A DNA stretch of 64,000 bases from Pirellulales bacterium (GTDB taxonomy: Bacteria > Planctomycetota > Planctomycetia > Pirellulales > JALHPA01), in contig JANRLT010000049.1 of assembly GCA_033762255.1 (NCBI GenBank), positions 43,388 to 107,387 of the forward strand. The letters run 5' to 3'. A program made the position numbers and the translations under genes. Every line of letters starts with the position of its first letter. Positions within the stretch are counted from its first letter, which is position 1. Under the pieces are notes generated by a model that did not search any database, was not told the origin of the DNA, and saw only the letters and a list, made by a program, of their open reading frames with translations. Shown one piece after another: positions 3,791 to 64,000 of this stretch.

Positions 3791-3864
<74 letters not shown>

Positions 3865-49907: not shown

Positions 49908-49980
49908 GCCCCCGTAGCTCAGGGGATAGAGCGAGCGTTTCCTAAACGCTAGGCCGCTGGTTCGATTCCAGTCGGGGGTA
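49908..49980 (+). tRNA. tRNA-Arg (anticodon CCT), element insertion site
   Basis: Complete cloverleaf: acceptor GCCCCCG/CGGGGGT, D stem GCTC/GAGC, anticodon stem AGCGT/ACGCT with loop TTCCTAA (anticodon CCT, reads AGG), T stem GCTGG/CCAGT with TTCGATT loop, discriminator A; no encoded CCA. The 3' half is also the end of the integrase gene on the other strand (overlap 49949-49980). This marks it as the attachment site used by the mobile element; the tRNA stays intact after insertion. Confidence 0.97.
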
Positions 49981-51262
49981 CAGATACGTTTGTCCACTGG
50001 TTACCATGCATAGCCACTGGCATTATTTCGCGGGAATTCTGCATATCGCCTTGAGCCAGTGACTGTACATGCGCGCTGTTGGGCGTAACTGAGTACGTCG
50101 GATTATACGTCACATTTTGCGGCGTGCTTTGGCGGGTGGTTATGGCCGACTGCAATCCTGTCTCGCCAGAGACGGCACGATCAAAATGGGTGGTCACGGC
50201 ACGCTGGTAATGTAGCTGCGATATGGCTTCGCTGTTCCCGCACCATTCGGCCACCACGGCCTGGGGAAAATGATCGGATAGTTCCATGATCCGGCTCGCC
50301 CGCAGGTTATGGGTAATGCGGGGCCAGGGTTGAATGCCAATGCGGCGCAACAGCTTCAAAATCCGCATCCGCACCACGGCGTCACTCCCTAAACGCAACT
50401 CATCCCCAAACACAAACAACGCACCTTCGCTGGCCTGTTCGTAAGCTTCATCGAGGTAGGGCCGCAATTCTGGAAACAAGGGGATCGTGCGGTAGGGCTT
50501 CCCGCACTTGGCCGTCTTTTGGCTATCAAAGGTTAACGTGTTAGCTTCCCAGTTAACATCCGTCCACTTTAGGTTCCGCAGTTCCGACGGCACCCGCAGC
50601 GCGCCATACCGCGATAATGCCAGCATTAGCCGCCATTCCGTGTTAGGGCAGGCGTCGATCACCTTTTGGATTGTGGCACGATCCACAAATACCAGACGCT
50701 GGCTATTCGACTGACTGCCAGCTTTGGCATCGGCAAAGGGGTTTTCATCAACTAGCTTTTTGCGTAACGCCACCTTAAACCACTGTCGCGCCAGGACGAT
50801 CCATTTAGAGATAGTGGCCGGGGAATACTCATTATTCACCATCGACTGTTTCCAGTCGGCCGCGCTGGATTCGGTAATCTCCCGCAGGTCGCAATTACCA
50901 AAATAGCCGACAATCGCGGCCTGAAACATCTTGGCGTTGCGCGTCGTATTGGCGGAATAATCCCGCCGCGCGGCAATTTCGGCGGTCAGGTAATCGTCCA
51001 ACTTGGCGGACTTTAGGCCCGGCACCAGATCATGCGCCGCCAGTTTGCCGCGAAGTTGGCTCCCCACGTCCTTAAGCCATGCGGCGGTAACGGCGGGGAT
51101 TGTGGTGCCACTCTGTTTGGCACCGATCAAGCTTTCGATATGGGTGAGGGCCTGTTTGGCGTTGGCCTTGGGCATCTTGCCTAGCCGCAAGGTTGAACGG
51201 CGTCCGCCCTGGTTTTTATATTCGATCCGCGCCGTGCCTTTGGTGTAAATGAGACTTGCCAT
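49949..51262 (-). CDS. int: Tyrosine recombinase (integrase) ending inside tRNA-Arg
   Basis: 437 residues. N-terminal arm-type region, SAM-like core-binding domain (about 95-175), catalytic domain with Arg223 (RYGALRVPSEL), a probable catalytic Lys near 249-255, HNLR (His318, Arg321), Asn343 where many relatives have His (CGNSEA), and nucleophile Tyr352 (LHYQ). The last residues VPPTGIEPAA are the reverse reading of the tRNA 3' half, so recombination at the att site sets the C-terminus. Its start overlaps the stop of the HTH regulator by 1 nt (TAATG), so both are co-translated. Confidence 0.95.
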   Translation of the reverse strand: MASLIYTKGTARIEYKNQGGRRSTLRLGKMPKANAKQALTHIESLIGAKQSGTTIPAVTAAWLKDVGSQLRGKLAAHDLVPGLKSAKLDDYLTAEIAARRDYSANTTRNAKMFQAAIVGYFGNCDLREITESSAADWKQSMVNNEYSPATISKWIVLARQWFKVALRKKLVDENPFADAKAGSQSNSQRLVFVDRATIQKVIDACPNTEWRLMLALSRYGALRVPSELRNLKWTDVNWEANTLTFDSQKTAKCGKPYRTIPLFPELRPYLDEAYEQASEGALFVFGDELRLGSDAVVRMRILKLLRRIGIQPWPRITHNLRASRIMELSDHFPQAVVAEWCGNSEAISQLHYQRAVTTHFDRAVSGETGLQSAITTRQSTPQNVTYNPTYSVTPNSAHVQSLAQGDMQNSREIMPVAMHGNQWTNVSVPPTGIEPAA

Positions 51263-51468
51263 TATTCCGGTTCCTTACTGGAAAGTTCGATCCTGAAAAG
51301 TTCTGTCAATTTATTGATTGCCACCAAACTTAACCCAGCTTGGCCATTAACAAAGCGCGACAACTGCGCTTGGTCAATTCCCGTTCGTTTGTAAATTGCA
51401 TACCGCGATAACTTTGATCGTTTGATGATCCGTTTTAGCTGCGCGGTAAACGATTTATGCTTAGCCAT
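51262..51468 (-). CDS. Small Cro/CI-type HTH regulator
   Basis: 68 residues. The helix-turn-helix is clear: LKRIIKRSKLSRYAIYKRTGIDQAQLSRFVNGQAGLSLVAINKLTELF. It lies directly upstream of the integrase gene with a TAATG junction. A perfect inverted repeat sits between its promoter and start codon, so self-regulation of this gene and the integrase is likely. It would keep integrase expression in check, as in temperate elements. Confidence 0.9.
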   Translation of the reverse strand: MAKHKSFTAQLKRIIKRSKLSRYAIYKRTGIDQAQLSRFVNGQAGLSLVAINKLTELFRIELSSKEPE

Positions 51469-51487
51469 GCTGTAACTATATGGGATA

Positions 51488-51504
51488 CTTGTTCTTGTAA
51501 CAAG
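51488..51504. promoter_or_regulatory. Probable operator for the HTH-integrase operon
   Basis: CTTGTT-CTTGT-AACAAG, a 6-bp inverted repeat with a 5-nt spacer, lies 20 nt upstream of the HTH start and just downstream of the -10 box (minus strand). The position suits a repressor site bound by the small HTH protein itself. A second perfect palindrome GCGTTATAACGC is at 51558-51569, upstream of the -35. Confidence 0.55.
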
Positions 51505-51512
51505 CAGATAAC

Positions 51513-51542
51513 ATTATAACATTCCTTGATAGTCCCTGACAG
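51513..51542 (-). promoter_or_regulatory. Sigma-70-like promoter of the HTH-integrase operon
   Basis: On the minus strand a perfect -10 TATAAT (51518-51513) is preceded by CTGTCA (51542-51537) as a -35, with an 18-nt spacer. Transcription would start near 51506, inside or next to the inverted repeat at 51488-51504. Confidence 0.6.
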
Positions 51543-51647
51543 TTGACACTCATATTTGCGTTATAACGCGTTCCGGCGTCCAGCGTGTCTAATGTCGAGT
51601 TTCCCCGCGAGACGCGTTCCTGGGGCGTCCTAGGCGTCCGATTTTCG

Positions 51648-51833
51648 CTAAAAAGGGAGTTCGTTCGGATCAGGCGGGCGTTTGGCATATTCGAGGGCTT
51701 CCGCCTTAAACTTGGCTATTACCAGCCGGTCGGTGTCGGTCGGTTCGCCGTTTAGCGGTGGATACGATTTCATATCCGCCGTTTTCTGGTTAGTAGATGA
51801 AAACGTTTTCGTATCCGCCTGATCCGGCCACAA
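51648..51833 (-). CDS. Small hypothetical protein (non-ATG start)
   Basis: 61 residues from a TTG at 51833. The reading frame stays open further upstream, into the 3' end of the primase-helicase gene, and the added residues (ADIKTKIKPKRPRERQIEL) look as protein-like as the rest, so the true start may be upstream at a rare codon, or the protein may be made by re-initiation or frameshift from the primase. The C-terminus YAKRPPDPNELPF is Pro-rich. No family recognised. Confidence 0.4.
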   Translation of the reverse strand: MWPDQADTKTFSSTNQKTADMKSYPPLNGEPTDTDRLVIAKFKAEALEYAKRPPDPNELPF

Positions 51834-51892
51834 CTCTATCTGCCGTTCCCTTGGGCGTTTTGGCTTGATCTTGGTTTTAATATCGGCACCCC

Positions 51893-54367
51893 CTAAAATC
51901 CCAACACCGGATCGACGGGAACAAAATCATCATCATGGATGCCACCAGAGAGGGTATGTTTTTTATCGTCCAGATCGTCCAATAACCTGTTATTTGCGGG
52001 TTCAAAGCTTTGGACGATGTTTTCCCCGGATCGTCCAAGATCGTCCAACTTATCGTCCAAGAATTCGGCACAACCCACACGCACATTGGACGATTGGACG
52101 CATTGGACGATGTTTTGCCCTACATCTCTGGTCAGGGTCAACAGCCGCCGCCGCTGAACTGTGTTTTCCCGTGCCACTGTCACCCTCAATCCTTGAGTAG
52201 CTAGCGAGGGGAACAGTCGCCGCAGACGGCCTGTGACACCACGGGGAGACGGCCACCCCTCTGGCGGCTTGGACGTATTAGGCCATAGCGCGGAGAGTAG
52301 CTCACTGGCGGTTCCCGTCCAGCTTGTGCCAGGTCTTATTCCATCCAGGATCGCCGTAGCGAATGGATCGCCGTCCAGTACTTCGTTGGCAATGCGGTCT
52401 TGCAGTCCCATGAAACGATCAAACGCGCCGAGGGTAACTCCCGCTTTGTCCGCCGCCGCCAAAACTTTGGCAAAATCGGCCATGCGGGGGAGTCTCGCTA
52501 GGTTGACGCCAGGGAGCGCGGCCAGGACTTGGCTTAAGGCGTCCAGGACCGCGCCAAATAGCCGTGGTTGCATTTCCTCCACCAAACTGTCTAGTTCCTG
52601 TTCCGTCCGCCTTGCATGATCGGGGATCACGTCCAGTTCGACCAGCAAGAGGCGTTCCCCTAAATCACCCCGTAGCGCACCCGCGTCGATACTGGTTAGG
52701 CAGATTACCCGCCTGAATGAACTAACGGCCAAGTCCCCGTCTGTATAAAGTATTCTACGGATTAAACCGTCGCCTGTGACTGCTTTGCACAAGCTATCCG
52801 ATAACCACGGGTGAATTTTGCTGAGGTTATCAATGACCACTCCCCACGATCCCCCGGCCTGAATCTGCCACGCTTCCATATCCCGTGGCTCGGATCGCAA
52901 GGGCGCATAACTGGGATCGAACAAAGACAACAGCACCCGCGCCGCGCTGGACTTGCCAGTCCCTTGGATACCCGTCAATAACAGGATCGGGTGCGGGATA
53001 TTTGGCACCAATGCGGCCACCAGCCACCCAATCACTATTGGCCAATCCACCGCCGTTACATTCAGCACTTCGCGCAGATCGTCCAGACTGCCACCACGTT
53101 CTGGTGGGGGTAACGCCTTGGTGAGCGCGCTTCGGCGAAACAATACTGGCGATTTAGTCAGCACCTGCCACCCCGCCGCCGTTACTTCCACGGCGCGGCC
53201 GGACTTATCACCTAAATCAATCACGATCCCGTCGCCATGCTTGGCCAGGCGCAGGTGCAATTGTTCCGGTTCGGCGTCGCTGGCTTCACCCCCTAGCACA
53301 CATAACGCATCGGCCAATGCGCTGGCGTTGGGCGTCCGTTCATGCGTCGCGCGGAATAGCTTTGCCAGTCTCTGGCGGAGGGACTCACTGTTGCCGCGCA
53401 AGAGTAGCGCGGGGCCACCCGCATGATCCACGGCAAAGAGTTCATCGGCGGTCGAGACGCCAAACCGATAATGCGCCAGTGCCAATTGCACTAATTGTTC
53501 CGCAGTCGAGGGACCAGACTTCTTGCCGGATTTATCGTCCGAATTGTCCGGCGCGTCCAATTCCACCGGCGCTTTGGCATCGTCCAGCTTCGCTGTCTGT
53601 TCTGTCGGCACCCATACGGGCGCGGCGTCGGCCAGACGTTCTAAGTCGGCCTTGGTTCCGCCTGAGTTTAGCCAGTCCGTAACATCGCCTTTGGGGGGGA
53701 GTCCGGGTAATTCCACGATCCGCACAGTGTCGGCCAAACCGTGGAGCGAATGACAGACTAACTTGGCGTGCTTACGGCCAGCATCGTCATTATCGGGTAA
53801 GACAATCACCCGCCGTCCGCGCAGGTATTCGGCGTGCTGTGGTGTCCATTTCCCGGCACCGCCAGCATTGCACGTGGCCACGATCCCGATTTTGGCAAGG
53901 TTGTCAGCATCTTTCTCGCCTTCGCAGATATAAACTGTTTGCGTCGGATCGGCTGGCAGTTCCGTTAAGCGATACGGCACTACGCGCACACCCTTGACGC
54001 TCCAGTCCCAGCCGCCGCCTGTCTTGGGTTTTCTCTGATTAAAACCCTTGGGATCATAGCGGACCACTTGGAATAGCAGTTTGCCTGATTCATCGCGATA
54101 ATCGTAGGTCGCGACACTCCTCCTTGTTTTGGTCTGTATCTTGCATGGCATCAAATCCGCCAGACACAAATTTACCGCGGCGCAAACCGCCTTTGTATCG
54201 CACCCAGCGTGACACTTGATTAACGCGCGGCCTTCATCACCAACACTAACGGATAGGCTAGCGTTCCGATCCTCATGCGCTGGACAACGTGCCTGCCAAC
54301 CGCTACTTGTTGGTTTTGCGTCGGGTAGTTTGGCCAGTAGGTTTTCAACTGGCGTTCCTTGATTCAT
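51893..54367 (-). CDS. Primase-helicase (CHC2 zinc finger, Toprim, RecA-like ATPase)
   Basis: 824 residues. N-terminal CHC2-type zinc finger (Cys28, His31, Cys52, Cys56: CPAHEDRN...KCHAGC), then a Toprim domain (about 143-200: VYICEGEKDADNLAKIG with the catalytic Glu, and VLPDNDDAG), a linker, and an ATPase domain with Walker A GIQGTGKS (466-473) and VVIDNLS/CLTSIDAG strands. The last 60 residues are Asp-rich and probably disordered. This arrangement is that of phage and plasmid replicative primases, which make primers and load or act as helicase. It is the main replication protein of the element. Confidence 0.92.
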   Translation of the reverse strand: MNQGTPVENLLAKLPDAKPTSSGWQARCPAHEDRNASLSVSVGDEGRALIKCHAGCDTKAVCAAVNLCLADLMPCKIQTKTRRSVATYDYRDESGKLLFQVVRYDPKGFNQRKPKTGGGWDWSVKGVRVVPYRLTELPADPTQTVYICEGEKDADNLAKIGIVATCNAGGAGKWTPQHAEYLRGRRVIVLPDNDDAGRKHAKLVCHSLHGLADTVRIVELPGLPPKGDVTDWLNSGGTKADLERLADAAPVWVPTEQTAKLDDAKAPVELDAPDNSDDKSGKKSGPSTAEQLVQLALAHYRFGVSTADELFAVDHAGGPALLLRGNSESLRQRLAKLFRATHERTPNASALADALCVLGGEASDAEPEQLHLRLAKHGDGIVIDLGDKSGRAVEVTAAGWQVLTKSPVLFRRSALTKALPPPERGGSLDDLREVLNVTAVDWPIVIGWLVAALVPNIPHPILLLTGIQGTGKSSAARVLLSLFDPSYAPLRSEPRDMEAWQIQAGGSWGVVIDNLSKIHPWLSDSLCKAVTGDGLIRRILYTDGDLAVSSFRRVICLTSIDAGALRGDLGERLLLVELDVIPDHARRTEQELDSLVEEMQPRLFGAVLDALSQVLAALPGVNLARLPRMADFAKVLAAADKAGVTLGAFDRFMGLQDRIANEVLDGDPFATAILDGIRPGTSWTGTASELLSALWPNTSKPPEGWPSPRGVTGRLRRLFPSLATQGLRVTVARENTVQRRRLLTLTRDVGQNIVQCVQSSNVRVGCAEFLDDKLDDLGRSGENIVQSFEPANNRLLDDLDDKKHTLSGGIHDDDFVPVDPVLGF

Positions 54368-54443
54368 TATGCTAAAATCCTTTCAGACAAAGGTAAATGC
54401 GACGTCGGGAGGTGAGATTCCCGCCGCCGCGCGAGGGGTAAAG

Positions 54444-54752
54444 TTACAGCGTCGCGGCCACGGGGTTATTCCCGTGGCCGTTGGCGTTTACGGGGGTAGC
54501 CGTGCATTGCTGCGAGACCAGCTTTGACAACCAAGTGCGAATCTCCGCCAAGGGATATATCCGCACCCCGCCGATTAGCACGCTGGGCATCGTACCGCTG
54601 GCGGTCCAACGCCGGATTGTGCTTTCACTGACGGCCAACAACTTTGCAAGATCGACGGCATCCACTGCCAGGGTGTCCACTGGCACGGCGTCGATCCGCT
54701 GCCGCAGTTGCTCATGCTCGCGAATTGTAGGAGTATTCGTGGATGTGCTCAT
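54444..54752 (-). CDS. Excisionase-like / MerR-type HTH protein
   Basis: 102 residues. Residues about 31-80 match the helix_turn_helix_17 excisionase pattern: DLAKLLAVSESTIRRWTASGTMPSVLIGGVRIYPLAEIRTWL. Such proteins bend DNA for excision or act as small regulators. It starts 4 nt inside the upstream 55-residue gene (ATGA overlap). The end of its gene contains a 10-bp perfect hairpin (54455-54480), which may attenuate transcription towards the primase gene. Confidence 0.88.
   Translation of the reverse strand: MSTSTNTPTIREHEQLRQRIDAVPVDTLAVDAVDLAKLLAVSESTIRRWTASGTMPSVLIGGVRIYPLAEIRTWLSKLVSQQCTATPVNANGHGNNPVAATL
54455..54480. repeat. 10-bp hairpin at the end of the excisionase-like gene
   Basis: CGGCCACGGG-GTTATT-CCCGTGGCCG is a perfect stem placed within the last codons. 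No T-tract follows in the direction of transcription, so it is not a simple terminator; it may slow polymerase or protect the message. Confidence 0.55.
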
Positions 54753-54916
54753 CGCGCACCCCCTTTGTGTGCCCGGGTGGGGCGGGTGTAGCTAATCCGC
54801 ATCCCGTAACGATTACGCAGTATCTGTAGGGCCGTGCGCTCAACTTGGCGGTCGCCGCTCTGCCGACCCGCCCACGCTATAGCCACCAGTGTGGCCGGAC
54901 TCTCTCGCTGTGCCAT
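54749..54916 (-). CDS. Small basic protein upstream of the excisionase-like gene
   Basis: 55 residues, MAQRESPATLVAIAWAGRQS...PTRAHKGGAR. Supported by a strong ribosome binding site (AAAGGAG, 9 nt before the ATG) and a 4-nt ATGA overlap with the next gene, which indicates translational coupling. Basic, with a short hydrophobic N-terminal part. I do not recognise a family. It opens the HTH-primase gene block. Confidence 0.7.
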   Translation of the reverse strand: MAQRESPATLVAIAWAGRQSGDRQVERTALQILRNRYGMRISYTRPTRAHKGGAR

Positions 54917-55024
54917 CGGTATCGCTCCTTTATTTGGTCGGCCACTAGCGGGCCGTATACATAGGGAGCGACGGGCGCGAAAAAACTTGCCGCAATAAGT
55001 TTTCGCGGTTGCAAAAACGAAAAA

Positions 55025-55043
55025 ACCCCGCGAAATGCGGGGT
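55025..55043 (-). terminator. Intrinsic terminator after the 387-residue gene
   Basis: ACCCCGC-GAAAT-GCGGGGT hairpin. In the minus direction it is followed by a T run (the A run at 55020-55025 of the plus strand), 60 nt beyond the stop of the gene at 55104. It separates this gene from the excisionase-primase block. Confidence 0.85.
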
Positions 55044-55103
55044 AAAATATTTTTAGATTTTTTGAGGGCGATAAGTTTTCTTGGAAAATCGCGGTAAGTA
55101 TTT

Positions 55104-56267
55104 TCAGTGTCTTGGGGCGTTCATTTCCCGCTGAACCTTCAGCATGGCGTTATAAGCTTCTCTTGTACTTTTAAGATTTTTCCAGGTATCCGTTCCCTTT
55201 ATAGTAGTTTCTGAGCAATTCAAGCTTGCCGCCCATTGGCTTGCATTCCAGGTCTGAGCTTCGGGTGTGCTTTCCAGCTTGGCTTCCATGCGTTCATTCA
55301 CCGTTGGCTGATCCTTTCTTGGCCTACCACCAAGGTTTTTGGATGTTTGCGGAGTACGTACTGCCCCGCCGTTGGCTTGCTGTTCACCCTGTTCCCCCAC
55401 CAGGCTTTGTTTCACCAAGTAAATACACTTTTTGAGTAGTGTCTTACCCTGCGGCGTCAGGGTTTCACAATTTCGAATCTCTCTTATTATCCATAACCAC
55501 ACAAACGGGCGATTCACTAATTCCCGATACTCTATTTCTCCCGGTACTAGCCCCTTAGCGGAAACTCGTTCTAGGACATTGTTTAATTTGTAAGCGGACA
55601 TTGGAACGAACGGGTCGTCAAATTCCGCCGCGTCATAAACCGCCGCTAGCACAACCATAGCATCGCGCTGGCTGATTTTTTGCTCTTTGCAAGTTTCCTC
55701 ACCGGCAATCATCCGCACAAAGTAGGGCCATTCCTGAGGCAGCTCCGGTTTTTTTATCTGAACTGTAAGCGAAAAACAGGGCAATTCAGGTTCTGCGTGG
55801 GTTGCCCCACTAATAGGGGGCAGGTTTTTTGGAGCCAGATTCAATTCATTTGGTGTGTCATTAAGGGGACCGTCGCTTCTTAAGAATGATCTCAATGATA
55901 GCGTCTTTGTGAAAATAACGTGGTTTTCTGCCTTAGTTGGAGTCAGCCATCGGTCGAGCTCCAAGACTTTGGCAACCGATGGGTGCCGGATCCTTAAGCG
56001 GATACTTTCTTTGTTGGCGAGGTCAAAAGGCAGCGACAGGCTATCGTTTAGAGTACCGATCCAAGGGGAATCCGTCTGAACCTCAAGATAGGTCCTTTCC
56101 TGATGTAGTTCCTGGAAAATTACATTTTTCGATATGGCCAGCCCGCTGTCACACTGCTCAACAAACCAACTTGAAATGGCAGCGGAAATTTCCTGACGCA
56201 AGTACGGGTGTTCGCACAATAAATCTTGTGTTTTCGCGCCATATGTTACCCGCCAGTCGGCATTCAT
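55104..56267 (-). CDS. Unknown element protein with C-terminal HTH-like region
   Basis: 387 residues from ATG 56267, preferred over the TTG at 56429 because it has a good ribosome binding site (TTAAGGTGAAACC). No recognised domain in the first 300 residues. The C-terminus has GRPRKDQPTVNERMEAKLE...WNASQWAASLNCSETTIKGTDTWKNL, which looks like a basic linker plus a helix-turn-helix of a type often found at the end of planctomycete and phage proteins. It is the first gene of the leftward block, next to the divergent control region, so a regulator or replication initiator role is possible (inference). Confidence 0.65.
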   Translation of the reverse strand: MNADWRVTYGAKTQDLLCEHPYLRQEISAAISSWFVEQCDSGLAISKNVIFQELHQERTYLEVQTDSPWIGTLNDSLSLPFDLANKESIRLRIRHPSVAKVLELDRWLTPTKAENHVIFTKTLSLRSFLRSDGPLNDTPNELNLAPKNLPPISGATHAEPELPCFSLTVQIKKPELPQEWPYFVRMIAGEETCKEQKISQRDAMVVLAAVYDAAEFDDPFVPMSAYKLNNVLERVSAKGLVPGEIEYRELVNRPFVWLWIIREIRNCETLTPQGKTLLKKCIYLVKQSLVGEQGEQQANGGAVRTPQTSKNLGGRPRKDQPTVNERMEAKLESTPEAQTWNASQWAASLNCSETTIKGTDTWKNLKSTREAYNAMLKVQREMNAPRH

Positions 56268-57076
56268 TGGTTTCACCTTAAGAATAGAAAACGGGCCGAT
56301 CGGAGAGAACCGCGTAAGCGGGATGCGCTCTCTCGCGGATCGTAAAACAAGATCGTTGTAACACACTGGCCACCTGTTCCGGAATATAGCAAATTTTCGG
56401 CCTGTAGGCGACTTAACAACTTGTTCCAAGCTGCTAGCAGTGTATTGCCGTTACCATCAAATTTGCCACTGTGTTTCATGTAGCAACAAATAGAAAACTT
56501 GGAGACTGTGTCTAAGTCGTTTGTGTAGCGCTGTGGCAATGTGGAAGCCCTTTAAAGCAAAGTCTGAACCTGCGGCAAACTTGGTTCCAACAAGAAAATA
56601 TCCTCACGCGTGAGAAACTCGAAAATCTACATCGTGGAGAGCGAGTCTTTCTCTATTCCCCAAGATTTAAACCCCAGGAAACGGGACTCCCACCAACTCT
56701 CCAACCCCCCCACCCCGGGGCAAAATTCTACAGACAGCAACTTCTCTACAAGTTGCTAAATTGCCCAAATTAACGCGGGGTTACACAAGTTGTGGGAGGG
56801 GGACTAGTAAGTATCCCGCGCGCGTGTGACGGGTGGGGTGCTGGGTCAAAATCGAGCCACGGTAACACTATCACACTGCAACGCTAAGCCGTTGTCCTCT
56901 ATACCTTTACGCTTTGCCGAGGGAATCGCTCGGCAAAATCCTGGCCGCTTTGCCGAGGCCGTAGTGTTGCTTGTCGATGCCACAACGGCAACGACGAACA
57001 ACGAGTTTCGCCGCTATCACCTTGACTGCAACGTAGCAGTGCACTGTGCTAGCACAACACTAAGGGAGTGTGAGTT
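56268..57076. promoter_or_regulatory. Divergent control region of the element
   Basis: About 810 nt between the leftward and rightward gene blocks, with no convincing gene. It holds a perfect 8-bp inverted repeat AGCAACTT-CTCTAC-AAGTTGCT (56736-56757), a related CACAAGTTGTG (56785-56795), a TTTGCCGAG/CTCGGCAAA inverted repeat (56913-56937) with a third GCTTTGCCGAGG copy (56947-56958), and a TGTGCTAGCACA palindrome just before the first rightward gene (about 57046-57057). Repeated short sites between divergent operons suit a replication origin or a set of operators. Confidence 0.6.
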
Positions 57077-57244
57077 ATGCCTGATCGAGCAACGGTTATT
57101 GAGTTTCTGTGCCAAGAGTTTGAGGAATACCTTTTGGATGACACAGAGGCGTTTACGCTGTCTCCGGACATGGACTATGAGTGGCCGGTGTTTGAGGCCT
57201 GGGGGCTCGGAGAGGGCCGCATGGATCACGTTTACCCAGGCTAG
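57077..57244 (+). CDS. Small acidic hypothetical protein
   Basis: 55 residues, MPDRATVIEFLCQEFEEYLLDD...GRMDHVYPG. Supported by an AAGGGAG ribosome binding site and by its place at the head of the rightward block, after the TGTGCTAGCACA palindrome. Strongly acidic; small acidic proteins in phages often mimic DNA, but there is no direct evidence here. Family not recognised. Confidence 0.6.
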   Translation: MPDRATVIEFLCQEFEEYLLDDTEAFTLSPDMDYEWPVFEAWGLGEGRMDHVYPG

Positions 57245-57360
57245 TTAGCACGGTGCCGTAGACTTCCCGACTAAGCACACTGCTAGCGTAGTGTGCTACA
57301 TCAGCGAGCCTACTGTTGGCGAGCGATTGTGTTTACTTAATCAAGGGAGAGTGTGCAGTT

Positions 57361-57777
57361 ATGACTAATTTAGAAGTGCTAGGCGAACTGGCCAAAGGTG
57401 GATTGTCCGTGGACGAGACTTGCTCGCTCATCGGGCAGGACAGTGCCACACTGCGTTACGTGCTAATGGGCGTCAAGAGCGGGGCAATCAAGCCCGCTGA
57501 TGCAGTTGATGTGCTGCCTAAGCAATCCACCGGTGCGGAGTTCACGGTGACAGAGAGTGGGGCGATTAACTTTGGTAGGCTGGCTGGCGGTAATTCGCAG
57601 TTTGGGACAATCCTGCGAGTTGAGACTGTTGCTGCTATTCGTGCCAAGTTGGACCGTTACGATGCGTTTGTTAAGGCGAATATTTCGCTCATCGACCAAC
57701 GTAGCGCGGCCAGCAAAGCCAAGCATGCCGCGGAAAAGGCGGCTAAGGCTAAGCCAAAGGTTAGGGTTGCGGCCTAG
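57361..57777 (+). CDS. Hypothetical protein with Lys/Ala-rich tail
   Basis: 138 residues from ATG 57361 (ribosome binding site CAAGGGAGAG); the frame is open to 57316. The N-terminus (NLEVLGELAKGGLSVDETCSLIGQDSATLRYVLMGVKSG) may be a helical bundle with an HTH-like turn. The C-terminus (SKAKHAAEKAAKAKPKVRV) is a basic, histone H1-like tail. A DNA-binding role is plausible. An AGCACAC/GTGTGCT inverted repeat (about 57265-57290) lies in its leader. Confidence 0.7.
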   Translation: MTNLEVLGELAKGGLSVDETCSLIGQDSATLRYVLMGVKSGAIKPADAVDVLPKQSTGAEFTVTESGAINFGRLAGGNSQFGTILRVETVAAIRAKLDRYDAFVKANISLIDQRSAASKAKHAAEKAAKAKPKVRVAA

Positions 57778-57792
57778 TGTGGGAATTCCCTG

Positions 57793-57813
57793 GCTCCCCC
57801 GTAGTGGGGGAGC
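57793..57813 (+). repeat. Hairpin with CCGTAGTGGG core (copy 1)
   Basis: GCTCCCCC-GTAGT-GGGGGAGC, 8-bp perfect stem, 16 nt after the stop of the 138-residue gene. No T-tract. Shares the CCGTAGTGGG core with the hairpin at 59115-59140, while the outer stems differ. Confidence 0.75.
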
Positions 57814-57871
57814 ACTTATCCCTACACTCTTACTGTGAGAGTGTGCGGTCAAGTAGCAAGGGAGAATGTTT

Positions 57872-58036
57872 ATGTATCGCTTTGGCGTGACACGCTATTT
57901 CGTTGTGCGGCTTAGTCCCCGTAGGTGGGCCGTTTATGCCGTCTTGCTTTCTGGTGAGGAGATTTGTTTTGGTGAGTTTCTCACAAAACGCAGCGCGTAC
58001 GAATACGTTAAAGAATCTACGCAAGGGGGTGAGTGA
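57872..58036 (+). CDS. Small hypothetical protein upstream of the clamp-loader gene
   Basis: 54 residues, MYRFGVTRYFVVRLSPRRWAVY...KESTQGGE, from the ATG at 57872 (an ATG at 57866 lies too close to the GGGAG ribosome binding site). Its TGA overlaps the next ATG by 1 nt (TGATG), which ties it to the ATPase gene. It is preceded by an ACACTCT/AGAGTGT inverted repeat (about 57821-57841). Family not recognised; the fold may be a small beta-sheet. Confidence 0.65.
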   Translation: MYRFGVTRYFVVRLSPRRWAVYAVLLSGEEICFGEFLTKRSAYEYVKESTQGGE

Positions 58037-58683
58037 TGCCTGCATTATTTGAGCGTGAACGGCCTAAAACGCTTGACGGCGTTGTAGGCCAGCCACCTGC
58101 GGTCAAGAGATTGACCGCGCTGAAAGAGCGTGGCCTAGGTGGCCGCGGCTACTGGATAAGCGGATTGTCGGGCACGGGTAAGACTACCCTAGCCAAGATT
58201 ATTGCCAGTGATGTGGCAAGCGAGTTTGCCACCACGGAAACTAGCGTTTCACAACTCACGCCGAAGAGTTTGGACGACTGGGAGCGTGGCCTACGGTGTA
58301 GGTGCATCGACGGCAAGGGACATGCGCTGATTGTGAATGAGGCGCACGGGTTGCGTAAAGACACAATCCGCCAGTTTCTGGACGTACTGGAACGTTTACC
58401 CGACTATGCCGTGGTGATATTTACGACCACGAATGAGGGGCAGGAGGCACTGTTTGAGGATTGCCTGGACACTGCGCCACTGTTGTCACGTTGTATCCGG
58501 TTAGAGTTACTCTCCAACGGTAAAGAGTTGGAGTTGGCGTTTGCTTTGGAAGCCAGGCGGATAGCGCAGAAACACTCCCTGGACGGCAAGCCGATAGGGG
58601 CCTACGTGGACCTGGTGCGCCAGTGCAAGCATAACATGCGGGCAGTGTTGCAGGCGATAGATAGCGGGTGTATGGCGGACTAG
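58036..58683 (+). CDS. Clamp-loader-like AAA+ ATPase with altered Walker B
   Basis: 215 residues from ATG 58036 (the GTG just before it is possible). RFC/DnaX-type layout: RPKTLDGVVGQPPAVKRL, Walker A GLSGTGKT (43-50), Walker B ALIVNEAH where the usual first Asp is Asn, sensor 1 FTTTNEG, the SRC motif (LSRCIRLEL), and a short lid domain. Much shorter than a full clamp loader subunit; it lacks the C-terminal collar domain. It could be a single-gene phage-type loader, or a regulator. Translation is coupled to the 54-residue gene upstream. Confidence 0.85.
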   Translation: MPALFERERPKTLDGVVGQPPAVKRLTALKERGLGGRGYWISGLSGTGKTTLAKIIASDVASEFATTETSVSQLTPKSLDDWERGLRCRCIDGKGHALIVNEAHGLRKDTIRQFLDVLERLPDYAVVIFTTTNEGQEALFEDCLDTAPLLSRCIRLELLSNGKELELAFALEARRIAQKHSLDGKPIGAYVDLVRQCKHNMRAVLQAIDSGCMAD

Positions 58684-58702
58684 CGTTATTTGTCAAGAAT
58701 TG

Positions 58703-58800
58703 TTTTCTCGGCTTAATTCGCTGGGTAATTATTCCGAGAAAATAACGGCGCGAAGAGCCTGTTTTTACGGGGTTTTAGCGTTGCGTAAGTGTTTTCTCGG
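58703..58800. repeat. TTTTCTCGG repeats (two direct, one inverted)
   Basis: GTTTTCTCGG at 58702-58711 and 58791-58800, and the inverted CCGAGAAAA at 58734-58742, all in the spacer between the ATPase gene and the next small gene. The spacing suits operator half-sites around a promoter. Confidence 0.6.
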
Positions 58801-58819
58801 AAAATTGGATGAATTGATT

Positions 58820-58832
58820 TTTACTCTAACCG
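58820..58832 (+). promoter_or_regulatory. TTTACTCTAACCG leader motif, copy 1
   Basis: A 13-nt motif 13 nt before the ATG at 58846, directly followed by a purine-rich GAGGGGG ribosome binding site. Identical copies precede two more small genes at nearly the same distance (59160 and 59405). Confidence 0.75.
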
Positions 58833-58845
58833 AGGGGGTTGTGTG

Positions 58846-59088
58846 ATGAAAATTAAGCTTGTGGAAAGTCAGTGGGAGGATTTTGCGAAGAGGTTATGTC
58901 GGTTTATGAACGAAGAGTGTCCAACGTGGGAGTGCGCTGTTCGCAAGGAAACAACGGTTGAGTGCGACCGTTACATTGTGGAAATAGCCGGTCCCACACG
59001 CGGCCAAACGGAATACATTAAGGGCTACGCTGCTGGGTATTACAAGGGGATTGTGGAAGCCGCCTTTGAGCGTGGCGTTCGGTACTAG
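58846..59088 (+). CDS. Small hypothetical protein (80 aa)
   Basis: 80 residues, MKIKLVESQWEDFAKRLCRF...RGVRY. The GTG just before would add one residue. Contains ECPTWECAVRKETTVEC with three cysteines, and GYAAGYYKGIVEAAFERG. No family recognised. It has the shared TTTACTCTAACCG leader and is followed by a CTAGCGTTA stop-codon context also seen after the ATPase gene. Confidence 0.65.
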   Translation: MKIKLVESQWEDFAKRLCRFMNEECPTWECAVRKETTVECDRYIVEIAGPTRGQTEYIKGYAAGYYKGIVEAAFERGVRY

Positions 59089-59114
59089 CGTTAGGTAAGA
59101 AATTCCGACTTTCA

Positions 59115-59140
59115 CCGCCGTTCCGTAGTGGGAACGGCGG
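59115..59140 (+). repeat. Hairpin with CCGTAGTGGG core (copy 2)
   Basis: CCGCCGTTCC-GTAGTG-GGAACGGCGG, a 10-bp perfect stem. Followed by TTTGAATTTTTGG, a weak T-rich tract, so it could terminate or attenuate the transcript. Shares the CCGTAGTGGG core with the hairpin at 57793-57813. Confidence 0.75.
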
Positions 59141-59159
59141 AACAAGTTTGAATTTTTGG

Positions 59160-59172
59160 TTTACTCTAACCG
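59160..59172 (+). promoter_or_regulatory. TTTACTCTAACCG leader motif, copy 2
   Basis: Identical 13-nt motif, 14 nt before the ATG at 59187 and followed by a CGGGAGA ribosome binding site. Confidence 0.75.
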
Positions 59173-59186
59173 CGGGAGATTGTGAC

Positions 59187-59396
59187 ATGATGCGAGTGCT
59201 TTGGGGCTGCAAGATTGGTAAGCCGGACTGGCACGAACGGATTATCACAAGTTATTCCGACCGTATTGAAGCCGCCCGGGCCTGGGCGTTAGCTAACGGC
59301 TATGACCGGCTGCGGGTAGCGGAATATCCTGGTGATCCTGATCCTGGTGAGAGTTTCCGGGCGCAAATCGCGGAGATGATGCGCAAGAAAACGTAG
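59187..59396 (+). CDS. Small hypothetical protein (69 aa)
   Basis: 69 residues from ATG 59187; a second in-frame ATG follows directly. MMRVLWGCKIGKPDWHERIITSY...AQIAEMMRKKT. The start upstream at 59148 (TTG) is rejected because the shared leader motif and ribosome binding site would then lie inside the gene. Unknown function; looks like a compact alpha/beta protein (RIEAARAWALANGYDRLRVAEY). Confidence 0.65.
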   Translation: MMRVLWGCKIGKPDWHERIITSYSDRIEAARAWALANGYDRLRVAEYPGDPDPGESFRAQIAEMMRKKT

Positions 59397-59404
59397 TCTG
59401 ATTC

Positions 59405-59417
59405 TTTACTCTAACCG
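59405..59417 (+). promoter_or_regulatory. TTTACTCTAACCG leader motif, copy 3
   Basis: Identical 13-nt motif, 12 nt before the ATG at 59430, followed by TGAGAGG as ribosome binding site. It starts 8 nt after the previous stop codon. Confidence 0.75.
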
Positions 59418-59429
59418 TGAGAGGCTACC

Positions 59430-59774
59430 ATGACTAAGCAAGAAACGTTTGACATCGTGTACCGGCATTTACTGACGCAAGGGCAGAAGTCGATATCGCG
59501 GGTGGTTGGCAGTGAAAACTTTGGCAAGTGCGCCTACCGTGGCGCAGACGGAGCGAAGTGCGCTGCGGGCGTGCTGATTCCTGACGAGGCTTACAAGCCA
59601 AGCTATGAGGGACACTCGGTAGCTGTGCTTAGTGATGTTTTTGAACAACTGGGGCACGACCTAAAGTTGTGTTAAATGCTACAGCATGTTCACGATGTAT
59701 TCGAGCCTGACGATTGGGGGCCGGCACTCCACACCGTGGCACTCAAGTATGGCCTCACCGTTCCGCAACTGTGA
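59430..59774 (+). pseudogene. Small KCA-x-G-LIPDE protein split by an in-frame stop
   Basis: The first part (59430-59675, 81 residues) contains CAYRGADGAKCAAGVLIPDEAYKPSYEG, a motif of small phage and planctomycete proteins of unknown function. It ends at TAA (59673-59675), but the same frame goes on at once with ATG (59676) for 32 more residues (MLQHVHDVFEPDDWGPALHTVALKYGL) that look like the usual C-terminal helix of this family. So one TAA splits what seems to be a single 114-codon gene. Options: a recent nonsense mutation, re-initiation at the adjacent ATG, or stop readthrough. Call as split gene is inference from recalled relatives. Confidence 0.6.
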
Positions 59775-59874
59775 CGGCTAGCGTTTCAGCCGAAACACAA
59801 AGAAACACAAAGAAAGCAAAAGGTGACAAAAGGTCACTAAAGGCTGTGTTGCCCCCCCTATAAACCCGCATTTC

Positions 59875-59904
59875 CGCGGCAAATACGTAGTTGTTTTTGC
59901 CGCG
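59875..59904. repeat. Hairpin CGCGGCAAA / TTTGCCGCG
   Basis: A 9-bp inverted repeat with a 12-nt loop in the leader of the MoxR-type gene (36 nt before its ATG region). Other small structures in the same spacer are GGTGAC/GTCAC near 59823 and tandem AAACACAAAG repeats near 59797. Confidence 0.55.
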
Positions 59905-59944
59905 CTGATCTTGGTTTTTGGTGGTGCTTTAAGGGAGATTTACC

Positions 59945-60964
59945 ATGTTCACATTAGACCGTGGGCGTGTGGACACCCAGCTTTCGCTGGACCTGCACGC
60001 CGACGCGCCGGGCTGGGTTTATAACCAGCATGAGCGCGACTGTAGCAGGTGCGGGCAGGCTATGCCCCTGAATGAGAAAGTAAAACCGGCTGGCCGTTCG
60101 CCTAGTGGCGACATGACCTGGCAACATTTTCACCCGTGTGAAGCCCCGAAACGTAAGCCCAGGGCCGCTAAGGTGGAAGTGGTGGTGCCGCCAGTGAAGA
60201 GTACCGAACGGCGTCACAAGCTGTTACCCAAACTGCTGCGTAAGCTGGCGGCGGGGTTGCATGTGATGCTCGTCGGTCCCGCTGGGAGTGGAAAAACCAC
60301 ACTGGCTTCCCAAGCCGCCCAAGAGTTGGGGCTAGAGTTTAGCTTCATCTCTTGCAGTGCGGGCATGAGTGAGGGGCAGCTGTTGGGTAGACTGTTGCCC
60401 GTGGAAGCGGGGGGCACATTCAATTATGTGCCCAGTGCGTTGGTGGAAGCGTACGAGAGCGGTAAGAGTTTGTTCCTGCTCGACGAGTTTGATGCGGCGG
60501 ACGGCAATACGGCTACCGTGCTCAATGCCGCCCTGGCGGGTAAGACTATGGCGTTGCCTAACCGTGCCGCGAATCCCCTAGCTCAGCGGCACAAGGATTT
60601 CAAACTCATCGCGGCGGCGAACACGTTTGGCCTCGGGGCGGATCGGATGTACGCTGGCCGCAACCAGCTTGACGGGGCCACACTAAACCGTTTCACGTGT
60701 GCCACGATTGAAGTGGACTATGACCGCGAACTGGAAGCGGATTTAGTGCCGGATAGCGTAGTGCGGGATACGGTTTGGAAACTGCGGGATTTGGTGCGGG
60801 AACGCAAGTTTCGGCAGATTGTCGGCACCCGCGATATGCTGGCCGCCCAAGCGTGCCGCAACGTGGGTGAAGCGTACCGCGAGATTTTCGCTGACCTGCT
60901 GGTGGCTTGGTCGGCCGACGAGCGCAAGGCTGCACAACAAATTCTGGAGAAACTGCCATGCTAG
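59945..60964 (+). CDS. MoxR/dynein-type AAA+ ATPase with N-terminal zinc ribbon
   Basis: 339 residues (ribosome binding site AAGGGAG). Residues about 33-65 contain CSRCGQAMP...HFHPC, a small zinc-binding knuckle. The AAA_5 domain follows: Walker A GPAGSGKT (111-118), Walker B LFLLDEFDA (176-184), sensor 1 AAANT (about 223-227), and Arg-rich GRNQLDGATLNRF near 238-250. MoxR-type ATPases remodel protein partners, usually with a VWA-domain protein. The partner is probably the next gene, which starts 7 nt before this one ends. Confidence 0.9.
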   Translation: MFTLDRGRVDTQLSLDLHADAPGWVYNQHERDCSRCGQAMPLNEKVKPAGRSPSGDMTWQHFHPCEAPKRKPRAAKVEVVVPPVKSTERRHKLLPKLLRKLAAGLHVMLVGPAGSGKTTLASQAAQELGLEFSFISCSAGMSEGQLLGRLLPVEAGGTFNYVPSALVEAYESGKSLFLLDEFDAADGNTATVLNAALAGKTMALPNRAANPLAQRHKDFKLIAAANTFGLGADRMYAGRNQLDGATLNRFTCATIEVDYDRELEADLVPDSVVRDTVWKLRDLVRERKFRQIVGTRDMLAAQACRNVGEAYREIFADLLVAWSADERKAAQQILEKLPC

Positions 60965-61815
60965 AGAGTTACCACACAAAGGGGATCGGGGGCCTGGTCC
61001 AGCGAGAATTCGACTCGCTGGACGACCTGGCCAACAGTGAGGCCACGGAGAAAGACAGGTACAATCCCTACGGCCTGGGCAGTTTGTTTGACCGGCACAA
61101 CATAGATTTTGTGGGGCGAAAGTTTACCGGCATCGACCATGCCAAACAAGAGTTGCACGGCCACTATCAGCCCACCGCTGATGATTATTTTGCGGTCAAG
61201 AGTTACCTGGACGATATGGATTTGCCCGTGCCGGTGAACGTCAAGCGTAGGCTGCGCTGGAACGAGGATAACGGGGATGCGCTGTGCGTCGACCGGCTGC
61301 GTGCCGGTCAACCGTACTGGCAAGAGTGCCAGCGCATGCCCAGCACTGGCCGCAGCAATATAACCATTGTGTGCAATGTGGCAACGTCGTGCGATGTGAA
61401 GTCCCGCGACATTCTGTGGCGCGGGGCTGCGGCTATCACGCTGGCCGATTGGCTGGAGCAAGCCGGTTACAGTGTGCGGTTGATTGCCGCCAAGTACAAT
61501 CTCAATTCGTACACCAACGGGGATCAGCTACTCCTGTCCTGCGTGGTCAAGGACTACGGTCAATCTGTGAGCGAGTCACTGCTGGCTAACGCCTTGAGCG
61601 GCTGGGCGTATCGGACGCTGTGGTTTTACGCGATGTCCAGCGAGGGGCGCGTGCTGACCAATAGCCTGGGCAGTCCCCGCCCGATGAATACCGAGATTGT
61701 GGACCTGCTCGACCCGGGCGCGATCTTGTGCCAAGAGTTGTGGGCGAAGGAAGCGGCCGCGATTTGGCTGCTCGAACAAGCCGCCAAATTCACGGATTTA
61801 AACATAGCGGCGTAG
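60958..61815 (+). CDS. Probable partner of the MoxR-type ATPase
   Basis: 285 residues from ATG 60958, overlapping the ATPase gene by 7 nt. No classical VWA MIDAS motif (DxSxS) is seen, but SNITIVCNVATSCDVKSRDILWRGAAAITLADWLEQAGYSVRLIAA has the strand-helix-strand rhythm of a VWA-like Rossmann fold, with the metal site altered. The pairing with an AAA_5 ATPase is well known for VWA proteins. Function of the module in this element is unknown. Confidence 0.75.
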   Translation: MLESYHTKGIGGLVQREFDSLDDLANSEATEKDRYNPYGLGSLFDRHNIDFVGRKFTGIDHAKQELHGHYQPTADDYFAVKSYLDDMDLPVPVNVKRRLRWNEDNGDALCVDRLRAGQPYWQECQRMPSTGRSNITIVCNVATSCDVKSRDILWRGAAAITLADWLEQAGYSVRLIAAKYNLNSYTNGDQLLLSCVVKDYGQSVSESLLANALSGWAYRTLWFYAMSSEGRVLTNSLGSPRPMNTEIVDLLDPGAILCQELWAKEAAAIWLLEQAAKFTDLNIAA

Positions 61816-61868
61816 TGAGAATCACACAGCTTTATTTCAAATAGGTTCATTTTTCCATGAGGTCAATC

Positions 61869-62174
61869 ATGCCCACGACGTTTATTGTGACGAACCACTT
61901 TTCTTGGAATAAAACCTTCATCACTCCCGGGGCGCTGGCTGCCTTTGGGGATGCGGAGTTACCCGCCCCCTACTTGGATCGCCATGCGAGGTGTGACTGG
62001 GGGACTGTCGGTGTTCAGGACGCCCAGGCGAATGATGATGCGCTCCAACATGGAGACCGGCTCCTAAGTGCCTATGTCCTGCAAAATGGCGTGAAAATCT
62101 GGATCATCACCGAGGGTGTGGATGCTAGCGGCCAGCGTCAAAGTACCACGATCCTGCTACCCCGTGAGTATTAG
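61869..62174 (+). CDS. Small plasmid-type protein
   Basis: 101 residues from ATG 61869 (MPTTFIVTNHFSWNKTFITPGALAAF), with AGGTC upstream as a ribosome binding site; 61857 is a possible start. The pattern TPGAL...CDWGTVGVQDAQANDDALQHGDRLLSAYVLQNGVKIWIITE...TTILLPREY is that of a small protein family found on plasmids and islands (from memory), of unknown function. It is the last gene of the rightward block. Confidence 0.8.
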   Translation: MPTTFIVTNHFSWNKTFITPGALAAFGDAELPAPYLDRHARCDWGTVGVQDAQANDDALQHGDRLLSAYVLQNGVKIWIITEGVDASGQRQSTTILLPREY

Positions 62175-62281
62175 GTTGTGCCCTTATGCACTACCACTGA
62201 CAAAAGAGGCCGCGGCAAGCACATGCAGCCAACTAAACTCCCCTCTCCATTCCTCCACTACTCCAATTCTCCATCCCCCCC

Positions 62282-62953
62282 ATGCCCATCATCGCCTACG
62301 CCCGCTTCTCACCCCGGCCCATGCCACAAGATTGCCACAGTGTTGAGCGGCAATGGGCGGATATCGACGCTTGGGCGGCTCGGCAGGGCTGGTCCGTCAA
62401 GGCCCACTATGCCGACCGCGACATATCGGGTGCCGACCGTGAGCGGGCTGGACTATTTACCGCGCTGGCCGAGCTTAAACGTGGGGATCGCCTGGTCGTG
62501 CGGGACTGGAGTCGTCTGGCCCGCGACACGGAATGGTCGATTGTGCTGGCCCGTGAGATTGAACGCAAAGGGGCTAAGCTCGTGTCAATTAGCGAAGGGG
62601 ACTGGAGCATGACGGACAATCCCACGGCCCGGTTTGTGAGCACGGTCTTTGCCGCACTGGCCGAAATGCAGCGTGAGTTAAGCCGCTCGCGCACGTCGGC
62701 CATGATGCTGCGCCATCAAAGCGCCGGTCGGGCCATGGGCAGCGTGCCGCCGTATGGCTACCGTAAAGTTGGCAAGAAACTGCTGCCCGTGCCGGACGAG
62801 CAATCGACCCTGCGGCTCATCCGTGATTTGCACGCCCAAGGGCTGGGGGCCTCCCCCATCGCCACGCGACTGAATGATTCAAAAATCCGTTGCCGCGGCA
62901 AAGGCCGCCTATGGCACGCCTCTACCGTGTGGAGGATTCTGAGGCGGGGGTGA
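62282..62953 (+). CDS. Small serine recombinase (resolvase/invertase family)
   Basis: 223 residues. Catalytic domain: IAYARFSPRPMPQDCHSVERQ with nucleophile Ser10, DRDISGADRERAGL, and VVRDWSRLARD. The second domain (about 150-223, MGSVPPYGYRKVGKKL...IATRLNDSKIRCRGKGRLWHASTVWRILRRG) is the 'Recombinase' DNA-binding domain in short form, with no zinc ribbon or coiled coil. No good ribosome binding site; the leader is C-rich (CTCCACTACTCC), like host spacers at about 33963 and 10785. It ends 6 nt before the first decayed CRISPR-type segment. It may resolve or invert a nearby segment, or be host-owned rather than part of the element. Confidence 0.9.
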   Translation: MPIIAYARFSPRPMPQDCHSVERQWADIDAWAARQGWSVKAHYADRDISGADRERAGLFTALAELKRGDRLVVRDWSRLARDTEWSIVLAREIERKGAKLVSISEGDWSMTDNPTARFVSTVFAALAEMQRELSRSRTSAMMLRHQSAGRAMGSVPPYGYRKVGKKLLPVPDEQSTLRLIRDLHAQGLGASPIATRLNDSKIRCRGKGRLWHASTVWRILRRG

Positions 62954-62958
62954 GGAGG

Positions 62959-63059
62959 GCGCGGTATTAACAGTACAATCTCTACCGCTTCAATACCGAT
63001 TGCTACCGCTATTACCTCCAAAGTCAAAATGGCGCGGTATTAACAGTACAATCTCTACC
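62959..63059 (-). repeat. Decayed repeat-spacer unit at the end of the CRISPR array
   Basis: A 36-nt segment (62959-62994, GCGCGGTATTAACAGTACAA...) is repeated exactly at 63032-63067, 73 nt further, which is one repeat-plus-spacer period. Both copies end in GCTTCAAT, the first 8 nt of the CRISPR repeat. Between them, 62987-63023 begins GCTTCAAT and ends AAAG like a repeat, but its middle has no likeness to the consensus. So this looks like a duplicated terminal repeat-spacer unit whose inner repeat has decayed. Confidence 0.7.
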
Positions 63060-64000
63060 GCTTCAATGGGGCCGTGCGTTTTCATGCACGGAAAGGCGGG
63101 CGGTTGTTTGTCACGCACGTGCGCTACCTAGCGCTTCAATGGGGCCGTGCGTTCTCATGCACGGAAAGCCCGTGGGTAAAACCAGACCGGGAAAATCCAG
63201 CGTGGCGCTTCAATGGGGCCGTGCGTTCTCATGCACGGAAAGTCGGCATGGGACGCTGACCAATATGGCGGGGGCGGCGCTTCAATGGGGCCGTGCGTTC
63301 TCATGCACGGAAAGGATCTTGCGTTTCGTAAGGCTGCGCTGGCGCAACAGTGGCTTCAATGGGGCCGTGCGTTCTCATGCACGGAAAGCCCTTTGCCAAC
63401 CTGCATGGCCGTAATCGTGCCGTGCTTCAATGGGGCCGTGCGTTCTCATGCACGGAAAGAAGCAACCGACCGCCCAGCCCCCCAAGAAGTCCGCTGCTTC
63501 AATGGGGCCGTGCGTTCTCATGCACGGAAAGGGCAATTCCATTTGATGAAGTACATTCCAATAAATTAGCTTCAATGGGGCCGTGCGTTCTCATGCACGG
63601 AAAGACGGTTGCCCCCTCTTTCTTTAACAGTATTAACTCGGCTTCAATGGGGCCGTGCGTTCTCATGCACGGAAAGGCGCCCGCGTCAGGTCGATTCCCA
63701 CACCCCCCGCTTGCTTCAATGGGGCCGTGCGTTCTCATGCACGGAAAGCGTTATCAGTCCGTGATTTCGGCGTATTGCCAGCTTGGCTTCAATGGGGCCG
63801 TGCGTTCTCATGCACGGAAAGAACAATACCCGGCAATCAAGGCGCAATGGGACAGCCTGCTTCAATGGGGCCGTGCGTTCTCATGCACGGAAAGGGTAAG
63901 AGACCACATTGTCACTCCGTAACAGGGTAAGCTTCAATGGGGCCGTGCGTTCTCATGCACGGAAAGGTCTTGATAGCCCGAGAAATGTTCCGTTTTCCAT
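63060..64000 (-). CRISPR. CRISPR array, 13 repeats visible, running off the right edge
   Basis: Repeats of 36 nt (plus strand GCTTCAATGGGGCC + GTGCGTTCTCATGCACGGAAAG) begin at 63060, 63133, 63207, 63279, 63353, 63424, 63496, 63569, 63641, 63713, 63786, 63859 and 63931. All are identical except the first (C to T in the loop). The 12 complete spacers are 35-38 nt and unique; a 13th is cut by the window edge. The repeat folds as CCGTGCGT-TCTC-ATGCACGG (8-bp stem with one wobble). On the minus strand it ends ATTGAAGC, like the 5' handle of many type I/III crRNAs, and the variant repeat is at the left end, so transcription is probably right to left, with leader and cas genes beyond 64000. No cas gene is in the window, so the type cannot be assigned. 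Confidence 0.97.

Follow-up and report, generated by a model that had tools for sequence, protein, structure and literature searches.

A type I-G-like CRISPR array as probable cargo of a tRNA-Arg-integrated element in a Pirellulales bacterium

The window, by which we mean the whole stretch of 64,000 nucleotides analysed here, comes from a Pirellulales bacterium and takes up the final 64 kb of contig C49, which has 107,387 bases and stops exactly at window position 64000. The assembly holds 5.47 Mb in 72 contigs and is 96.6% complete. Towards the right of the window lies a tRNA-Arg(CCT) gene on the plus strand (49908..49981, ARAGORN), the apparent integration target. A tyrosine integrase is encoded next to it on the minus strand (49949..51262), an open reading frame with the Pfam Phage_integrase domain. 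Its 3' end reads through the tRNA and the protein has the C-terminus PPTGIEPAA. Relatives of this integrase are present in 194 of the 397 genomes of the order (E<=1e-40).

Further to the right, also on the minus strand, Pfam domains identify a primase/helicase-like protein (Toprim_2 and AAA, 51893..54367), which probably serves the replication of the element, and an excisionase-like HTH_17 protein (54444..54752) in a region common to the element on contig C71 described below. Next come two AAA ATPase genes, a DUF7192 gene and a small ORF on the plus strand (58033..62174, Pfam), an element core common to the siblings on contigs C43 and C8. A serine recombinase with Resolvase and Recombinase domains follows on the plus strand (62282..62953; Pfam Resolvase, E 5e-30) and forms the left border of the cargo position. 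Among the 397 genomes of the order and the viral contigs, no close relative of this recombinase was found outside its own genome. In terms of transfer functions, none of the ten element proteins scanned (49949-62953, with the stretch beyond 64000 unseen) matched a relaxase or conjugation family.

The last part of the window is a genuine CRISPR array (63060..63966, minus strand). It is composed of 13 repeats of 36 nt (GCTTCAATGGGGCCGTGCGTTCTCATGCACGGAAAG) and 12 complete spacers, all different and 35-38 nt long, which gives repeat plus spacer units of 71-74 bp. Twelve of the 13 repeats are identical and the first, at 63060, has one mismatch. Near-identical repeats with unique spacers of constant size are what characterises such arrays. 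RNA folding yields a 6-bp hairpin, as expected. The first 34 nt of a thirteenth spacer follow on the same strand (63967..64000), and the contig end falls inside this spacer. A sequence-only reading of this DNA had reported the array, about 100 nt after a serine recombinase gene and 11-14 kb to the right of an integrase that uses tRNA-Arg(CCT). All of this was confirmed, the first repeat beginning 106 nt past the stop codon of the recombinase and 11.8 kb from the start of the integrase. An extra repeat-like unit left of the array (62958-63067) had been missed in that description.

As for the type of the system, a scan for the repeat pattern across 84,980 species genomes returned 71 stretches with the same pattern, and the named loci are mostly from Planctomycetota. 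The proteins conserved beside these arrays are Cas4g/Cas1g, Csb2, Csb1/Cas7g and Csx17, which is the type I-G set, with NF049935, TIGR02165, TIGR02570 and TIGR04113 matched above cut-off. The window array is thus assigned to type I-G by repeat family, repeats of the same pattern adjoining type I-G cas genes elsewhere. The pairing of this repeat with the integrase or the recombinase is not general, since neither gene was present in the stretches retrieved around the 71 loci.

Single type I-G-like repeats, with no array, were seen in viral-classed contigs (L180, L181, L182, L183 and L175), which are candidates for solitary repeat units; L180 and L181 have the same flanks around the repeat. A viral mini-array or solitary repeat unit that uses host cas genes was rejected. 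The array in the window has at least 13 repeats, and although C43 has just one (see below), the assembly has no Cas1, Cas7g or Csb2.

The orientation of the array is given by these relatives. Array and Cas4/1 were both scorable in 22 loci; in every one of them cas4/1 is found at the CGGAAAG side, pointing at the array, and in the window this side would be right of 64000. On its spacer side the repeat also has the end ATTGAAGC, which it shares with the Methanosarcina barkeri type I-G repeat used in biochemistry (PMC10504553). The leader and the cas genes would therefore be expected right of 64000. By the cas4/1 side in the 22 loci, the trailer (old) end is at position 63060, the place of the only deviating repeat. 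This corrects the earlier description, in which the array starts at this end: 63060 is not the leader end. Accordingly oriented, crRNA is expected to come from the minus strand, with leftward transcription.

The same genome carries siblings of this element. Paralogues of the serine recombinase are encoded on C43 and C8, with 98% and 97% identical proteins respectively, and a remnant is found on C71. The element core DNA has 82-90% identity between C49 and C43 or C8. After the recombinase, C49 has the CRISPR array, C43 one lone repeat ahead of a type I restriction-modification system, and C8 metal-export genes (RND, CusB-like, P-type ATPase) with no CRISPR repeat. The C71 element encodes DISARM, with DrmA, DrmB and a cytosine methylase. 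The integration sites also differ, being tRNA-Arg(CCT) for C49, tRNA-Glu(CTC) for C8 and the 3' end of tRNA-Lys(TTT) for C43. For the C8 sibling, a search over 30 kb did not reveal a right att.

Some further observations were made on the siblings. The one on C43 (L013, C43:1-20000; L021, C43:20001-26374) has its own integrase at the tRNA-Lys 3' end, and its type I system is HsdM, HsdS and HsdR, together with DUF1828/1829 and Schlafen-AlbA genes. Copies of the tRNA-Lys(TTT) 3' end are located at C5:36204, C43:1174 and C58:6215, which suggests tandem elements there. The C8 sibling lies in L019 (C8:82000-101999). The C71 element (L020, 3277-16464), where the recombinase is only a remnant, has a PEP-CTERM lectin-like gene before its right end.

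A search of the whole genome for the repeat found nothing besides the C49 array and the single C43 repeat. C43 and C49 have in common the end of the recombinase gene, a 28-bp flank (GCGCGGTATTAACAGTACAATCTCTACC) and one full repeat, and they diverge directly after it. Because the two elements that share this junction occupy different tRNAs, the array's trailer end must have moved along with the element backbone. The single C43 repeat is best seen as a remnant, or stub, of an array that was lost or replaced. The terminal repeat might even be a cargo-exchange point, with CRISPR, restriction, DISARM and metal-export modules swapped at one fixed place to the right of the serine recombinase, and the C43 array replaced by the restriction system through recombination at the repeat; we think this improbable.

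In terms of cas genes, Cas1, Cas7g and Csb2 were not found in the 96.6%-complete assembly, and the contig breaks where they are expected, so that nothing is readable right of 64000. Applied to 5 genomes with a known Csb2, the Csb2 search recovered it in all 5, and the Cas7g search was run without a positive control. Since the break falls inside the array and before the expected leader, this absence is not separable from assembly or binning loss.

A possible, if doubtful, reading of this result is that of an orphan array, element cargo whose cas genes have been lost and which works only if another element supplies type I-G proteins. All three genes are absent from the assembly, as such a loss would have it, and a sibling that retains just one repeat indicates that loss does happen among these elements. 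Decay is not advanced in the window, however, with 12 of 13 repeats identical, and the assembly stops within the array, right before the position that the cas genes occupy in 22 of 22 scored relatives.

The extra unit left of the array is a duplication. A 37-bp segment, made of 28-29 bp of trailer flank and the first 8 bp of the repeat, is found in two exact copies on the plus strand, an outer one (62958..62994) and an inner one (63031..63067) that overlaps the trailer-end repeat by its first 8 bp. Between them is a spacer-sized insert of 36 nt (62995..63030), with no match elsewhere in the genome. Segment and insert add up to a 73-bp unit, compared with 71-74 bp for the units of the array. 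The C43 sibling (stretch L013:12474-12537) has the segment once, so the duplicated state is derived. From these sequence features, the insert and the duplication are probably the product of an off-target full-site Cas1-Cas2 integration, with the target shifted by 28 bp.

An ordinary tandem duplication or slippage could also produce such a unit, and an 8-bp match (CTACCGCT, seen by eye) does tie the insert to the flank. We consider this unlikely. No source for the insert exists in the genome, and both the duplication of 37 bp and the unit of 73 bp equal the values of the array (36 and 71-74). Furthermore, the unduplicated state is kept in the sibling, and just one other close exact direct repeat pair of at least 20 bp is present in the first 62.9 kb of the window.

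Non-canonical or ectopic spacer integration is known from Streptococcus thermophilus (PMC7999890), and non-canonical integration from Nivala et al. 2018, as cited in PMC11788318. The trailer unit is like these integrations in having a repeat-sized duplication around a spacer-sized insert, away from the leader-repeat junction. Unlike the cases cited, it is natural, belongs to a type I-G-like array, straddles the last repeat and has its ancestral state in a sibling.

We now turn to the ends of the element. Exact copies of the 22-bp core GGTTCGATTCCAGTCGGGGGTA are limited to two in the genome, the attL core inside tRNA-Arg(CCT) (49959-49980) and a copy on another contig (C53:75961-75982). The latter is 1.4 kb from the end of C53, and the orientation is direct when C53 is placed after C49 in reverse. 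The sequence-only reading had found no second att site before the array, and this holds: at up to 6 mismatches there is no second att-like copy in the window, except for a 6-mismatch match inside another tRNA at 3791, and none between integrase and array. It had pointed to the region right of 64000 for a copy of the tRNA 3' end. The contig ends there, and the sole exact copy is the one on C53, in the required orientation.

The 162 bp just inside the C53 att have a full-length match only at the right end of the C71 DISARM element, past its last cargo genes. Read from this att into the element, the minus strand has an open frame (PPTGIEP...LIGIIRQLVAVWPSLSPADKAVVTSLV) that extends the integrase frame through the att. 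The tail of this inward frame (PPTGIEP...VWPSLSPADKAVVTSLV) resembles tails at the right att in four other genomes whose elements have an integrase of this family (G105, G261, G037 and G107), and the tRNA-Lys att on C58 has the same sort of inward tail. The 162-bp match, the tail and the lack of an att-like copy between integrase and array mark the C53 copy as a right end of this family of elements. Because the right-end frames carry integrase-like C-terminal tails, the integrase gene probably contains the attP, and the C-terminus of the integrase would be swapped on integration. A C-terminal tail exchanged for a tRNA-derived end would be a handy marker for right ends. The tail reads roughly AWPxLxPxxxAxxxALV (L014:9962-10203 on C53; L020:16207-16464 on C71). 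In the other genomes where the integrase family could be traced to a repeat of a tRNA 3' end, the att pairs are repeats of 20-26 bp, 9.5-17 kb apart.

C49 and C53 are not physically joined, and C53 ends in an IS transposase fragment, which explains the break of that contig. An integrase beside a tRNA and a duplicated tRNA 3' end are thus both present, the duplicate being on the other contig, and we infer the linkage. The earlier reading had also proposed a comparison with relatives lacking the insertion. This gave no empty site: the host PpiC-like gene left of the tRNA was found in the order, with neither a tRNA-Arg nor a C53 gene adjacent, and the relatives are too distant to share synteny at tRNA-Arg(CCT).

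Two tandem elements at tRNA-Arg(CCT), with C53 as the outer right end and the array in the inner element or in between, are an alternative arrangement. The three tRNA-Lys att cores on three contigs do suggest tandem insertion at another tRNA, but the assembly has just two exact tRNA-Arg att copies, and the alternative seems to us quite improbable. A host-chromosomal array, with the true right end of the element between 62174 and 63060 and the neighbourhood due to chance, is very improbable: the contig does end before a right att could be visible on it, but there is no att-like copy right of the integrase, the junction of recombinase, 28-bp flank and repeat recurs in an element at another site, and a right end with matching att is on another contig.

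The type I-G-like array is therefore very likely cargo of an integrative element that entered tRNA-Arg(CCT) by means of the tyrosine integrase. The sequence-only reading had considered the array and any cas genes as cargo if the right att lay beyond 64000, and the array as host-owned if a second att copy lay before 62.3 kb. For the array, this is supported by the right att candidate at C53:75961-75982, the right end shared with another element and the recurring junction; the support does not extend to the cas genes.

As for the targets, searches of phages and plasmids, of the genome itself with its sibling elements and of the loci retrieved gave no credible match for the 12 spacers, and the suggestion that the array is aimed at competing elements found no support. 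The best match, 25 of 26 nt in a Gordonia phage (E 0.1), was read as chance. In a seed search, 17 nt of spacer 11 (63822-63858; GCGCAATGGGACAGCCT) were exact in 52 viral contigs, a number above the rough expectation. It was rejected as a target, as the match does not extend and there are at least 13 mismatches over the full spacer.

The element would then be ordered as attL in the tRNA, integrase, replication and ATPase core, serine recombinase, cargo position, right end and attR (C53:75961-75982). The leader and a type I-G cas operon would be in the unassembled gap just right of 64000. A pre-crRNA transcribed leftward would be cut by Csb2 (Cas5/6) before AUUGAAGC to give crRNAs, and these would guide Cas7g, Csx17 and Cas3 to invading DNA; immunity would thus arrive together with the element. 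The trailer-end unit would record an off-target integration by Cas4/1-Cas2, shifted by 28 bp.

This organisation can be compared with known systems. It is like type I-G (formerly I-U) of Geobacter sulfurreducens and M. barkeri (PMC10504553) in the repeat end ATTGAAGC, and repeats of the same pattern adjoin Cas4g/Cas1g, Csb1, Csb2 and Csx17. Unlike those systems, the window array probably resides on an integrative element, and no cas gene is readable. CRISPR on integrated mobile elements is already known (PMC7913775; review PMC11656645). A type I-C CRISPR-Cas system is found on the conjugative pKLC102/PAPI-1 island of Pseudomonas aeruginosa, and the spacers of pKLC102 mostly match phages (PMC7913775). 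The present case is similar to pKLC102/PAPI-1 in having CRISPR on an integrated mobile element, at a cargo hotspot common to other defence systems (for the hotspot view, PMC12629846). It differs in that the element would carry type I-G, measures about 15.5 kb plus the gap, has no conjugation genes seen and belongs to another lineage.

If this reading is right, the locus clearly exemplifies adaptive immunity transported by a small tRNA-integrated element, and its siblings in the one genome have type I restriction, DISARM and metal export in the corresponding position. Since siblings with different cargo share one genome, the turnover of defence cargo is directly comparable between near-identical backbones. 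The trailer unit would be a rare instance, found in nature, of a spacer that was probably integrated at the wrong place, the pre-insertion sequence being preserved in a sibling. Added interest thus lies in this probable misplaced spacer and in defence modules that have been swapped within one genome among backbones that are nearly identical.
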